From an uncultured Bacteroidales bacterium (GTDB taxonomy: Bacteria; Bacteroidota; Bacteroidia; Bacteroidales; P3): DNA of 39,500 nt. The position numbers and the translations under genes are program-made. The stretch covers positions 1 to 39,500 of the forward strand of contig CAMZFW010000005.1 of assembly GCA_947306225.1 (NCBI GenBank). Direction: 5' to 3'. Each line of letters starts with the position of its first letter. The stretch's first letter is position 1. The notes beneath the pieces were generated by a model that worked only from the letters and a program-made list of their open reading frames with translations, was not told the DNA's origin and did not search any database. This document shows, piece by piece, positions 1,964 to 39,500 of the stretch.

Positions 1964-1994
1964 CAAAATTAGACATTTTTTTTCATCTACACAA
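1964..1994 (-). promoter_or_regulatory. Bacteroidetes-type promoter for atpE-F-H-A
   Basis: On the reverse strand, TTG (1994-1992) is followed after 20 bases by TAATTTTG (1971-1964), matching the TTG-N19/20-TAnnTTTG consensus of Bacteroidetes primary sigma factor. Transcription would start near 1957, giving a leader of about 90 bases before atpE. The surroundings are strongly AT-rich. Confidence 0.65.
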
Positions 1995-2135
1995 GTTTTT
2001 AACACTTAAAATCAAAAAAAATATTCCAACTCATTAATTATCAACATCAATATTTTCACCCCACACCTCAAACTATGAGCAATTCCACGTATCGGCCCAA
2101 ATCGGGCATGACATTAGGGTTTACATCTTCCCTTT

Positions 2136-2298
2136 AGCACTTAACCGTTCGTTAACCGATCGTTTGCCGTTCGTTTGCCGTCCAGGCGACGGCAAACGAC
2201 CCCCCAATCGGTAGAATGCGGTAAGTTTCGGTAAAAAGCGGTAAGATGCGGTAAGTTTCGGTAAGATGCGGTAGAATGCGGTAAGATGCGGTAAAAAA
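2136..2298 (-). repeat. Composite repeat copy 1: hairpin block plus nine 10-bp units
   Basis: The pentamer CGGTA recurs at exactly 10-bp steps nine times (2209, 2219, 2229 ... 2289), with units such as TGCGGTAAGA, TTCGGTAAGT and TGCGGTAGAA. It is joined to a block containing CGACGGCAAACGACCCCCC, a hairpin with 10-bp arms CGTTTGCCGT (2172-2181) and ACGGCAAACG (2189-2198) around a 7-base loop, and GTTAACCG-type repeats ending near AGCACTTAACCG (2136). The same structure in opposite orientation lies at 37741-37939. It sits between the stop of the MalY-type gene and the atpE promoter. The 10-bp period is not a multiple of 3, which argues against coding. Confidence 0.9.
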
Positions 2299-2347
2299 CA
2301 GAAGAAAAATCTTCCGCTCGCGTGTGGATTATCTACGATGCAGGCAC

Positions 2348-3514
2348 CTATTCAAGGGCGGAAACGAGGCGGTGGAGGGCTTCGAGAAGAGTGGCTCGAG
2401 GACAACCAAGATTGAGGCGGAAACAGCCGCTGTAATCTTTACCGCCAAATGTGGTGCCGTCGTTGAGTGCCAGATGGGCTCGGTGGACAAGACGGTCGCG
2501 GATGTCGTCGTGGTCAAGTCCCAAATCGGAGAAGTCGAGCCAAGCCAGATATGAGGCTTCAGGAAGTATGGCGCGAACTTTCGGGAGGTGATGCGACAGG
2601 AAGTCTCGAAGGCAGTCGACATTGCCTTGCAAATAGTGCAACAGCTGACGCAGCCATTCTTCACCCTGAGCGAACGCCGCCTCTGCACCGACGAAGGCAA
2701 AGATATTGCCGTTGGCAAGCTCATAGCCATCGAGATAGCCGAAGAAACGCTGGCGCAACTGCTCGTTGGGACAATAGCAGACCGAGCTGCTGAGTCCGGC
2801 TATGTTGAATGTCTTGCTGGGCGCGACAAAAGTAATAGAGATATTGCGCGCATTGTCGCTGACCGTACTGAAACTGACGTGGCGATGAGGCGGAAGGGTG
2901 AGGTCGGCATGTATCTCGTCGGAGATGACATTCACATTGTTGCGATAGCAGATGTCGGCAATGCGACGGAGGGTCTCTTCGTCCCAGACGGTGCCGCCGG
3001 GGTTGTGGGGATTGCTGAGGATGAGCCAGCGGCATTGATGCGCACGCCATTCGAAGTCGTCGAAGTCGATGGCAAAACGCCCGTCGACCACTTTGAGAGG
3101 GCTGCAGACGAGCTGGCGATGGCTGTTTTCAGGCAGAGCCAGAAAGGGTGGGTAGACGGGGGTGGTGACGAGGATTCCATCGCCCGGATTGGTCATTGCC
3201 TGCAGTACGAAGGCGATGCCTGCCACGATGCCGGGAATGAAGTGTAGTTCTTGGCGGTCAGCGGTGATGGCATAATGGTTCTTGAGCCAGTTGGTGACGG
3301 CCAGCCAGTAGCTGTCGGGGGCAGTGGCGTAGCCTAGCACCTCATGGTCGCAACGACGGCGCAAGGCTTCCATGACAAAGTCGGGCGAACGGAAGTCCAT
3401 GTCCGCAACCCACATGGGCAGGAGGTCGTCGCTGCCAAAGAATTGCTTGAGAGCATCGTGCTTGACGCAATTGGTACCTTTACGGGGAATAATCTCGTCA
3501 AAATTGTATTCCAT
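2348..3514 (-). CDS. MalY/PatB-family PLP-dependent C-S lyase or aminotransferase
   Basis: Fold-type I pyridoxal-phosphate enzyme of the MalY/PatB group, which typically performs beta C-S lyase (cystathionine or cysteine conjugate cleavage) and sometimes aminotransferase reactions in the cytoplasm. The 388-residue product has the group N-terminus (NFDEIIPRKGTNCVKHD, then LPMWVADMDFRSP at 32-44), SNPHNPGG (167-174), the cofactor-binding Asp199 in SDEIHAD, and the Schiff-base Lys234 in APSKTFNIAG. Length is normal. The 38-base gap to nadB and lack of a promoter box suggest co-transcription with nadB. Substrate cannot be decided from sequence; MalY/PatB is secure, the exact reaction is not. Confidence 0.9.
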   Translation of the reverse strand: MEYNFDEIIPRKGTNCVKHDALKQFFGSDDLLPMWVADMDFRSPDFVMEALRRRCDHEVLGYATAPDSYWLAVTNWLKNHYAITADRQELHFIPGIVAGIAFVLQAMTNPGDGILVTTPVYPPFLALPENSHRQLVCSPLKVVDGRFAIDFDDFEWRAHQCRWLILSNPHNPGGTVWDEETLRRIADICYRNNVNVISDEIHADLTLPPHRHVSFSTVSDNARNISITFVAPSKTFNIAGLSSSVCYCPNEQLRQRFFGYLDGYELANGNIFAFVGAEAAFAQGEEWLRQLLHYLQGNVDCLRDFLSHHLPKVRAILPEASYLAWLDFSDLGLDHDDIRDRLVHRAHLALNDGTTFGGKDYSGCFRLNLGCPRATLLEALHRLVSALE

Positions 3515-29671: not shown

Positions 29672-29746
29672 CCCCGAAATTTTTTCTGTTAAAAAACACT
29701 CTGACCCCGAAATTTTTTCTGCTAAAAAACACTCTGACCCCGAAAT
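29672..29746. repeat. 33-bp tandem repeat, 2.3 copies
   Basis: The unit begins CCCCGAAATTTTTTCTG and ends AACACTCTGA; copies start at 29672, 29705 and 29738, the last being partial. The first two differ at a single T/C position. It lies between the ATPase promoter and the stop of the gene at 29758, in a 133-base spacer without any gene. Confidence 0.9.
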
Positions 29747-30691: not shown

Positions 30692-30710
30692 GGGCTTGAG
30701 AGGATTGTTT

Positions 30711-30795
30711 GATTGTCTGAATGCTTGATTGTTTGAGTGTTTTGACGCGCCAGCTACTCACACATTTACACATTCAGACAATCAAGCAATCAAGT
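30711..30795. repeat. TTGATTG palindromic spacer element, copy 1
   Basis: Spacer between the ettA stop and the next gene, composed of GATTGTTTGATTGTCTGA on the left, a central TTTTGACGCGCCAGCTACTCA, shortened here to GACGCGCCAGCTACTCA, and CAGACAATCAAGCAATCAA on the right. The two sides are reverse complements overall. It is a diverged relative of the copies at 32474-32575 and 39364-39418. Confidence 0.75.
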
Positions 30796-32467: not shown

Positions 32468-32473
32468 TATTAA

Positions 32474-32575
32474 TTGCTTGATTGTTTAATTGTCTGAGTA
32501 GTTATTGATTGCTTGATTGAGTATTTTGACCGCGTCAGCCACTCAAGCATATACACAATCAAGCATTCATGCATT
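32474..32575. repeat. TTGATTG palindromic spacer element, copy 2
   Basis: Fills the 109-base spacer between recJ and ettA. It contains TTGATTGTTTAATTGTCTGA and TTGATTGCTTGATTGAGT, a core GACCGCGTCAGCCACTCA (32528-32545), and ACAATCAAGCATTCATGCATTC. The core is identical to that at 39381-39398. There is no promoter box, so recJ and ettA may share a transcript that reads through it. Confidence 0.85.
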
Positions 32576-32576
32576 C

Positions 32577-36104: not shown

Positions 36105-37436
36105 CTATTCCTCACAGTCAATATCTATCGTTTCGTATCTTAATATCGAAGGCAGAATAAGGTTTACATTAGTCAGAGTAGTAATGTCTTCGGGCCATTC
36201 TGTTGTCACGGCCGCATCCAGACTACACGCGATGGATGGGCGATACATCTGTCGGCATGCCCCTGTGGCGGCATAGACCTCTCTTGCAATCGCCAGGCCT
36301 CCACTCTCCGTCCCTATCGTATAATATCCTCCGCTGGCACTGGCATCTATCCCGTCCAACGTCACACCCGCAGTATACGACACTTCCACCTGTCCGTAAT
36401 TAGTCATATCGTATCTAAACACAGAACTTTCAACACTAGTAACCGTTGTATTGGACACATCATGTAGCAGCAGCAGGTGCTGCGTGGCAGCATCGTAGCC
36501 CATTTCCTTCATCATCCACGAAGAAGGACTAAAAAAATACGAACTCCCATGAATATAATTCAATGTGGTATACACCACAACCGTATTCGTCGGAGGGTCG
36601 ACCCTAAACAGCTGTACCTCCGTCCCAACCAAAGATGCTCCCATATAATGGTATGCCAATGCGAATTCTATTGGCGAAATATCCGCCAGCCGCATTCCTG
36701 CCGATGGGGTGTTGCCCGTCAACCTATACATATAACCCATATTCAGCGGGGCAGAAAGCATGTCTATTACCGATGTATGGAACACCTGGACATAATAGTT
36801 CGGCGAGGAATTCTTCTTTATCGCCACAGCCACATAGTCGCTGCTGGCGGCTACGTCGTGATAAGCCATAGCACCCGTTGTATTACTATAATAATAAATA
36901 CGCCACGCCGCTCCGTCAAAATGAGCGGAGCCCACCGTGGAACCCGACAGCATCTCACCAACAAAGGCAATACAGGTTACACCCGCACAGGTGTACACAT
37001 CCATCCGCTTGGGAGAGGCAACATACGTCGATGGCACAGACGGGTTGTACAGCTCACAATAATTGATACTGTTCGGCATATTGAAAAGGGAGTTAATGTC
37101 GGCAAAACCCACTATTCCATGAGACAAACTCAAATCCTCACCACAAAAGAACACCGTGTCGTGCAAAATACGGAAGTCGTTGACTCTAACATTATTAGGG
37201 AGTATTGCCTTTTTTAATACAGATAAGGATGAATCTAACAAAAAAAAGCAACTCCCACCTGAAGTCTCTTTTGCATAACCCACTGCCAACCCAGACCTCC
37301 ATTCTCGAATTGTCGAATAGTCAGAATACAACGATGAAACATTCCACCTGACGTACGACTGCGCTGGCACTCTCCACCCTGCCAATAGAAGAATTACAAA
37401 AATAGTAATCAATCTTACATCTTTCATCTTTCTCAT
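36105..37436 (-). CDS. Secreted protein of unknown function, propeller-like
   Basis: Unrecognised exported protein of 443 residues. A signal peptide (ITIFVILLLAGWRVPAQ) is followed by repeated short beta-strand segments with FVGEMLSGSTVGSAHFDGAAWRIYYY-type phrases (quoted in part: FDGAAWRIYYYSN, YYVQVFHTSV, MGYDAATQHLLLLHDV), suggesting a beta-propeller-like fold. No T9SS sorting domain is seen at the C-terminus, which ends ILRYETIDIDCEE. Starts at 37436 and 37427 are both possible. It is more AT-rich than most genes here and precedes the T9SS cargo gene with 26 bases between them. Confidence 0.75.
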   Translation of the reverse strand: MRKMKDVRLITIFVILLLAGWRVPAQSYVRWNVSSLYSDYSTIREWRSGLAVGYAKETSGGSCFFLLDSSLSVLKKAILPNNVRVNDFRILHDTVFFCGEDLSLSHGIVGFADINSLFNMPNSINYCELYNPSVPSTYVASPKRMDVYTCAGVTCIAFVGEMLSGSTVGSAHFDGAAWRIYYYSNTTGAMAYHDVAASSDYVAVAIKKNSSPNYYVQVFHTSVIDMLSAPLNMGYMYRLTGNTPSAGMRLADISPIEFALAYHYMGASLVGTEVQLFRVDPPTNTVVVYTTLNYIHGSSYFFSPSSWMMKEMGYDAATQHLLLLHDVSNTTVTSVESSVFRYDMTNYGQVEVSYTAGVTLDGIDASASGGYYTIGTESGGLAIAREVYAATGACRQMYRPSIACSLDAAVTTEWPEDITTLTNVNLILPSILRYETIDIDCEE

Positions 37437-37690: not shown

Positions 37691-37740
37691 ATTTTTTCAA
37701 CCCAAATCGGCTGCAAAAATACACACAATTTTTCTTGCCC

Positions 37741-37939
37741 TTACCGATTCTTACCGCATTCTACCTAAACTTACCGATTCCTACCGCATTCTACCGCATC
37801 TTACCGCATCTTACCGCATTCTACCGCATTTTACCGCATTTTACCTAAACTTACCGCATTCTACCGATTGGGGGGTCGTTTGCCGTCGCTAGAACGGCAA
37901 ACGAACGGTTAACGAACGGCAAACGAACGGTTAAATGCT
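37741..37939 (+). repeat. Composite repeat copy 2: thirteen 10-bp units plus hairpin block
   Basis: TACCG or TACCT recurs at exact 10-bp steps thirteen times (37742 to 37862), with units such as TTACCGCATT and CTACCGCATC. It is followed by ATTGGGGGGTCGTTTGCCG, a hairpin with arms CGTTTGCCGT (37877-37886) and ACGGCAAACG (37894-37903) around 7 bases, then ACGAACGGTTA repeats ending TTAAATGCT. It matches copy 1 (2136-2298) in inverted orientation, with the block sequences nearly identical and only the unit number and loop differing. The apparent reading frame through it is a product of the period and is not considered a gene. Confidence 0.92.
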
Positions 37940-39179: not shown

Positions 39180-39185
39180 AGGTAT

Positions 39186-39375
39186 GATTGGGTGATTGTC
39201 TGATTGCTTGATTGTTTGATTGTTTGAGTAGTTATTGATTGGGTGATTGTCTGATTGCTTGATTGTTTGATTGTTTGAGTAGTTATTGATTGGTTGATTG
39301 TTTGATTGCTTGATTGTTTGATTGTTTGAGTAGTTGTTGATTGGTTGATTGTTTGATTGCTTGATTGTTTGAGTA
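39186..39375. repeat. 51-bp tandem repeat, about 3.7 copies
   Basis: Units start at 39186, 39237, 39288 and 39339 (exact 51-bp steps); each is built from smaller GATTGTTT/GATTGCTT pieces and ends GAGTAGTTATT or similar. The last copy is cut short by the palindromic core. Because 51 is a multiple of 3, a spurious open frame runs through it. It separates the ATG of the barrel gene (39179) from the upstream gene. Confidence 0.9.
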
Positions 39376-39418
39376 ATTTGACCGCGTCAGCCACTCAAAC
39401 AATAACACAATCAAGCAT
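39364..39418. repeat. TTGATTG palindromic spacer element, copy 3
   Basis: Arms ATTGTTTGAGT (39364-39374) and ACTCAAACAAT (39393-39403) are perfect reverse complements; the interior contains GACCGCGTCAGCC with the small inverted pair TGAC/GTCA. It is followed by ACACAATCAAGCATTCAAG, which reaches the stop codon of the gene at 39419. Confidence 0.85.
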
Positions 39419-39500
39419 TCAAGCATTCTCCAATATGTGGAAAACGTCGCGCCAGGTGGCTTTCTGTCCGTAGCGGAGGATGGCACCGCGGTAGATTTTG
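39419..39500 (-). CDS. 3' end of an unidentified gene (partial)
   Basis: The reverse frame reads KIYRGAILRYGQKATWRDVF and continues HILENA before the TGA at 39421-39419; the 5' part is outside the window. I do not recognise the protein from 26 residues. The final codons (GAG AAT GCT TGA) are formed by the GAATGCTTGA end of the spacer repeat, so the stop codon is supplied by the repeat. The next gene downstream is the barrel protein, same strand. Confidence 0.6.
   Translation of the reverse strand, partial: KIYRGAILRYGQKATWRDVFHILENA

Follow-up and report, generated by a model that had tools for sequence, protein, structure and literature searches.

A dispersed modular repeat with an outward promoter-like box, probably a non-autonomous mobile element, in an uncultured Bacteroidales bacterium

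The DNA analysed here, hereafter the window, comprises 39,500 nucleotides of an uncultured Bacteroidales bacterium (assembly GCA_947306225.1, contig CAMZFW010000005.1, positions 1 to 39,500), and carries a composite element close to its right end. The element consists of an array of 10-bp units followed by a G-run, a hairpin and three 11-bp units, and the count of 13 units in its array includes the terminal unit TACCGATT, which merges into the G-run. To the left of the array lies a promoter-like box that is directed outward, and this copy is among those in which the box is positioned exactly 20 bp from the array. A second copy of the element (L005) is found near the left end of the window (Table 1). 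The window also encodes a protein at 36105-37436, for which a Pfam search gave no match, and none of its six homologues at E ≤ 0.001 has a precomputed Pfam domain.

Table 1. Positions of the parts of the two copies of the composite element in the window.
Feature	Positions	Strand	Remarks
Outward promoter-like -7 box	37712-37722	-	GTATTTTTGCA on the minus strand; TAnnTTTG at 37714-37721
Spacer of 20 bp, rich in T and C close to the array	37722-37741	.	Length fixed; sequence conservation weaker
Array, 13 units of 10 bp, TACCGNNNNN	37742-37871	+	Minus strand reads CGGTA every 10 bp
Conserved link ATTGGGGGGTCGTTTGCCG, overlapping the array end and the 5' stem	37867-37885	+	53 genome matches with ≤2 mismatches
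Hairpin, 11-bp stem, loop CGCTAGA	37876-37904	+	Pair counts, folding versus shuffles
Three 11-bp units ACGGTTAACGA, ACGGCAAACGA, ACGGTTAAATGC; the last carries the right end	37905-37938	+	
Second copy, array of 9 units	2204-2293	-	
Second copy, hairpin, loop CGCCTGG	2171-2199	-	
Second copy, 11-bp units and right end TTAAGTGCT	2136-2170	-	No -7 box at 20 bp in this copy

The preliminary description of this DNA, made from its sequence, had recognised the copy with 13 units as a second, inverted version of the same parts, with conserved stem arms, a different loop and a different unit number, and had noted that the pair brackets 35 kb. The sequences of both copies bear this out: the inverted arms (2136-2293 and 37782-37939) are 158 nt long, 87% complementary and separated by 35,488 nt, and the copies differ in loop sequence and in the number of units (13 versus 9). 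The promoter-like box at 37714-37721 had gone unmentioned in that description. When folded as single-stranded DNA, the hairpin-and-iteron parts of the two copies score better than shuffled sequences (z -3.37 and -5.13). A search of window positions 1980-2400, the sole stretch compared with Rfam, yielded two matches, both far under the gathering score.

The draft genome to which the window belongs (G000) comprises 2.41 Mb in 199 contigs and is 85% complete. In this genome the 19-base link ATTGGGGGGTCGTTTGCCG was matched 53 times at ≤2 mismatches (30 on the plus strand and 23 on the minus strand), and the reversed control pattern gave 0 matches. The expectation that the two copies represent a genome-wide family was thereby confirmed, and the alternative that only two copies exist, arising from duplication of one larger segment, does not hold with about 50 copies in the genome. 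Besides the link matches, hairpin copies were found at L085, L282 and L283, L505 is the right half of a copy, located at the end of a contig, and L504 consists of an array and box lacking the hairpin. Seven contigs end within the element (L011, L017, L018, L025, L041, L283 and L505), which explains part of the assembly breakage; since these copies are cut, some halves may belong together, and about 50 to 56 copies is a fair count. The density corresponds to one copy every ~43 kb, i.e., to ~0.9 expected copies per 39.5 kb. Because both orientations are also common, an inverted pair in one window is an ordinary consequence of the abundance of the element. That the pair serves as a homologous target for a 35-kb inversion or as a chromosome-organising site, as its inverted arrangement over 35 kb could suggest, is in view of this density and of the mixed orientations highly improbable.

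The build of the element was measured in 55 of the 56 copies, leaving out L283, which is cut by a contig end and lacks the link. Exactly nine units are present in 38 of the 55 arrays, the others ranging from 4 (in an array truncated where its contig ends) to 17, and the four variants TACCGCATTC, TACCGCATCT, TACCGCATTT and TACCGAAACT make up 302 of the 476 units. Read on the opposite strand, the array shows CGGTA at 10-bp intervals, and CGG is also present in the 11-bp units past the hairpin, so that CGG repeats face outward on both sides, approximately one helical turn apart. This spacing and orientation suggest that the repeats on either side of the hairpin could bind a putative protein in helical register. 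The left edge of the element is pyrimidine-rich; at the right end, conservation continues for ~11 bases beyond the last unit in the 51 alignable copies and then fades. The full form runs from an outward -7 box and 20-bp spacer, via usually nine 10-bp CGGTA units and a G-run, to the hairpin, which is followed by 11-bp CGG units numbering two to four; the 3' arm of the hairpin is a further unit of this type. Hairpin-and-iteron modules with a common loop AATAGAATAAATAA that lack the 10-bp array were observed in G000 at L280 (~3325-3410) and L281 (~1410-1515), the former sitting before a large ORF that was considered as a candidate parent gene.

By the patterns used, recognisable relatives of the element occur in 3 of the 119 other genomes of the genus that were searched (G086, G071 and G096). 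The exact hairpin pattern was found in 1 of 61 genomes and the array pattern in 2 of 120. The link-array pattern was found in 6 of 120, i.e., in G000, G086, G071 and G096 as well as in G021 and G129, the latter two of which were set aside because their matches have no array and look like chance. Moreover, some relics were noticed in G071: at L491/L492 the array is decayed and still in 10-bp register, and at L492 and L501 about 100 bases separate the first TACCG from the remaining units, and part of this stretch resembles by eye the sequence to the right of the element in L026.

In other species of the genus, different hairpins lie beside the same genes (L294, L295, L298, L299, L301, L315, L325 and L335), and the hairpins of these species are, by eye, intergenic and in some cases accompanied by roughly 11-bp repeats. 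Their presence fits an origin in which slippage generates arrays and template switching generates hairpins, each time anew and in many intergenic places. For the family described here, this explanation of locally grown simple repeats is largely refuted and very unlikely, as the link, the hairpin, the unit types and their order recur in about 50 places, the number of units is mostly constant, and a discrete unit has been duplicated.

The preliminary description had also taken the conserved stem with a changed loop as a sign of selection on structure. Within G000, the 53 readable copies contain 11 distinct hairpin sequences; all 11 pairs are kept in 46 of these copies and the inner 10 in 49, the few stem changes are one-sided, and a compensatory change was found in none of them, so that with a stem that hardly varies these copies are uninformative on this point. 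Partial support for the claim comes from the relatives. Across 16 distinct hairpin sequences, standard pairs occupy 159 of 176 cells; at four stem positions both sides have changed, in every case between G000 and G086, and the changed arms of G086 mostly still pair. The copies of G086, G071 and G096 have other arms that form 7 to 11 of the 11 pairs (mean 10.0, versus 7.6 for crossed arms, as counted by script in ten rows, one of which is the G000 consensus), the broken pairs including 2 of 11 in L083 and 4 of 11 in L084. The corresponding permutation result (0 of 20,000 shuffles) is biased, as some arms, L502 above all, were picked for pairing and related rows were included. Furthermore, the 3' arm of the stem is itself one of the 11-bp units, and therefore homogenisation of the units could also keep the arms matched. 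Taken with these limits, the comparison supports a palindrome that is kept, either as a predicted hairpin or as predicted paired binding sites.

The left flank was inspected for the 54 copies with at least 60 bases available. In 23 of these the sequence CAAAnnTA, which reads TAnnTTTG outward, is found at a distance of exactly 20 bp from the array, where 0.025 occurrences are expected from background, and 31 copies have no box at this distance; within 60 bases only three further occurrences exist, at 30 (L018), 51 and 52 bp. Among the 23 box-bearing copies GCAAA and TA are invariant and most of the spacer is variable, and conservation stops ~38 bases from the array. Reading of other copies located the box at 20 bp in the array-only L504 of G000, in L080, L082, L083 and L285 of G086, and in L498, which is one of the three copies of G071. 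It is absent from this position in L084, L502 and L506 of G086 and in the sole G096 copy. In L079 of G086 the box lies at 30 bp, as in its counterpart L018. Fifteen copies that start with TACCACAT have no box at 20 bp, and 10 of these have an A/T run of at least 6 at about 9-16 bp from the array (by eye).

The box, whose promoter activity is predicted from its sequence, fits the -7 consensus TAnnTTTG of Bacteroides sigma-ABfr promoters, which also have TTTG around -33 (PMC7366714). As the -7 consensus lies 20 bp from the array, the array starts at about -35, and it would thus sit roughly where Bacteroides promoters have TTTG near -33, with CGGTA units instead of that motif. A-rich sequence precedes the box, a feature that it has in common with 76 native-like promoters in the genome. 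A peak of TTG at 20-21 bp in native promoters was considered and rejected, since these 76 promoters display no clear TTG peak (6 at 20 bp, 5 at 21, 7 at 32 and 6 at 12), and consequently it is uncertain which native feature the array replaces.

According to a rough choice of ORFs, the nearest ORF to the left of the 23 box-bearing copies points away from the element in 17 cases and toward it in 5, with none found in 1, and the corresponding numbers for the 32 other copies are 16, 14 and 2. The left genes of six of the 55 copies, picked because they were recognised and identified by Pfam, encode GlmS, GalK and LemA at box-bearing copies, and HisS, ribosomal protein S16 and the A subunit of gyrase/topoisomerase IV at other copies; these unrelated genes are enough to doubt a single regulon and too few to exclude one. 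They bear on the possibility that the copies are fixed regulatory sites, in which the array is an operator for a DNA-binding protein acting from about -33 and is maintained by selection instead of being dispersed by transposition. The exact 20-bp register, which recurs in some copies of two other species, and the rule of nine units per array fit such sites, as does the divergence between copies (mean identity of 85%, range 73-97%, among 37 nine-unit copies), which counts against a mobile element to the extent that old, fixed sites would diverge likewise. We nevertheless consider fixed sites unlikely, given the unrelated functions of the six neighbours, three of which flank box-bearing copies, the many copies without a box at 20 bp, the rarity of the element elsewhere in the genus, and its absence from the glmS and galK loci of the displayed relatives.

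At glmS, 14 of 15 relatives were matched; the element is absent from the stretch shown in all 14 displayed, and each of these has TAnnTTTG near the start codon. Similarly, for galK 15 genomes were searched and 12 long matches displayed, in all of which the element is absent and in 11 of which a box lies near the start. In G000 the native box is retained at both genes, with the box of the element upstream as an addition. Since these relatives are other species (73-90% identity at glmS), the empty sites are not alignable to the base. Two copies located 23 kb apart (L002 and L003) have 272 bp in common at 95% identity in unrelated flanks, the common unit starting immediately ahead of the box and ending some 75-80 bases beyond the last of the 11-bp units, and for L013 and L019 the likeness extends far leftward and ends at the right end of the element. 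L018 occupies the same place as L079 of G086, with flanks that are 91-92% identical; that insertion therefore probably predates the split of G000 and G086, and not all copies are recent. The right gene at L026 and L083 is common at 82%, and as their left flanks have no match, they are not called the same insertion. When the ends were compared by eye, no clean terminal inverted repeats were seen, the ends being weakly marked as pyrimidine-rich on the left and purine-rich on the right, and no target duplications were seen by eye, with none obvious at the ends of L002 and L003. The exact spacing also raised the idea that promoters are the target of insertion; this is not our first choice, because the native box persists at glmS and galK and the L002/L003 unit includes the box. 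It may still apply to copies that have one box only: in 9 of the 23 box-bearing copies, the 300 nt that follow contain no second TAnnTTTG.

Being short, non-coding and dispersed in many copies, the element resembles a MITE in the wide sense. Taken together, the data are best described by a dispersed modular non-coding repeat that is most likely a non-autonomous, MITE-like mobile element built like BOX and BrickBuilt and equipped with an outward promoter-like box, a reading to which we assign a probability of roughly 0.6. Such an element would have multiplied mainly in the lineage of this species, by copying a unit of ~200-280 bp, and in the 23 of 54 copies with the box, it could provide the neighbouring gene on the box side with an additional transcription start.

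REP and BIME elements with RAYT are small palindromic repeats, and the present element, being short, partly palindromic and present in many copies, could be of that kind and be mobilised by a Y1 (RAYT) transposase. The array and the 11-bp units differ from the REP layout. Moreover, the preliminary description had proposed to look for a REP-associated Y1 transposase elsewhere in the genome, and this enzyme did not turn up: PF01797 had no match in the 85%-complete genome, with the control matching in 5 of 14 genomes. REP-like mobilisation is accordingly regarded as exceedingly unlikely. A search for Y2_Tnp, the other transposase family covered, gave no match in the genome, but as none of 14 control genomes was matched either, this result carries no weight as evidence.

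The nearest known kinds appear to be BrickBuilt and BOX. BrickBuilt is a MITE of Porphyromonas gingivalis with a 23-nt unit, of which ATCC 33277 has 19 copies; its terminal inverted repeats resemble those of ISPg1/ISPg9 most closely, and its outward promoter activity was shown by reporter assay in E. coli (PMC4596501). The two are alike in being species-restricted, intergenic repeats of Bacteroidales that have no transposase of their own and that carry a head-to-tail minisatellite between leader and tail, whereas the present element, compared by build, has a 10-bp unit, about 50 copies, a box at a fixed 20 bp, and a hairpin with 11-bp units on one side (PMC4596501). As its unit is 10 bp instead of 23 nt, the element is regarded as alike in build and is not assigned to BrickBuilt. 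The boxB units of BOX are also longer than 10 bp. BOX of Streptococcus pneumoniae, which has been proposed to be a parasitic element able to affect nearby genes, is likewise a composite of end modules and a variable tandem middle module that can be absent, and is nearly restricted to a few species; the comparison concerns layout only, BOX belongs to another phylum, and no fixed promoter-to-array rule is seen for it in the accessible part of the report (PMC3049150). The literature searched contained no description of the present element, which is weak evidence of absence as its coverage of subscription journals was thin.

If the mobile-element reading is true, the element would represent another minisatellite-bearing repeat of Bacteroidales able to hand out promoters, with a different build, and a clean prediction is that transcription starts are set by the 20-bp rule at 23 loci. 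A bolder version, which we consider rather doubtful, regards the element as a portable control unit: a selfish repeat in whose outward promoter nine phased 10-bp putative protein sites replace the -33 box, so that each insertion could put a neighbouring gene under the control of that protein, and in which the hairpin and 11-bp sites would drift between species together with the protein.

A 171-base copy had no blastn match in either the phage or the plasmid collection at E 0.01, and the exact hairpin pattern occurred 0 times in viral contigs. A scan of genome contigs for four successive TACCGN5 units returned at least 98 stretches, of which 80 were read and included arrays from many phyla. In viral contigs, TACCG formed 96 arrays of 10-bp period, versus at least 120 for the control pentamer TCACG and 14 for ACTCG, and given these counts a universal over-representation of TACCG/CGGTA arrays is not claimed. 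Many of the 60 matches listed for viral contigs (L184-L243) belong to one phage-like group with 10-bp arrays of GTACCGAAAT and GTACCGAAAC in two blocks, which are perhaps an operator or an origin. Several Gemmatimonadota MAGs (among L086-L165) have 10-bp arrays of CTACCGTCCT and variants in many places, sometimes as inverted pairs.

Finally, the window contains a second composite intergenic repeat, in which arrays of the 8-bp unit TGATTGNT at 30703-30793, 32470-32576 and 39185-39428, two of the three with TTTGACCGCGTCAGCCACTCAA after them, are accompanied by an inverted stretch, as well as a tandem 33-bp unit at 29672-29746 (2.3 copies, 97% matches).
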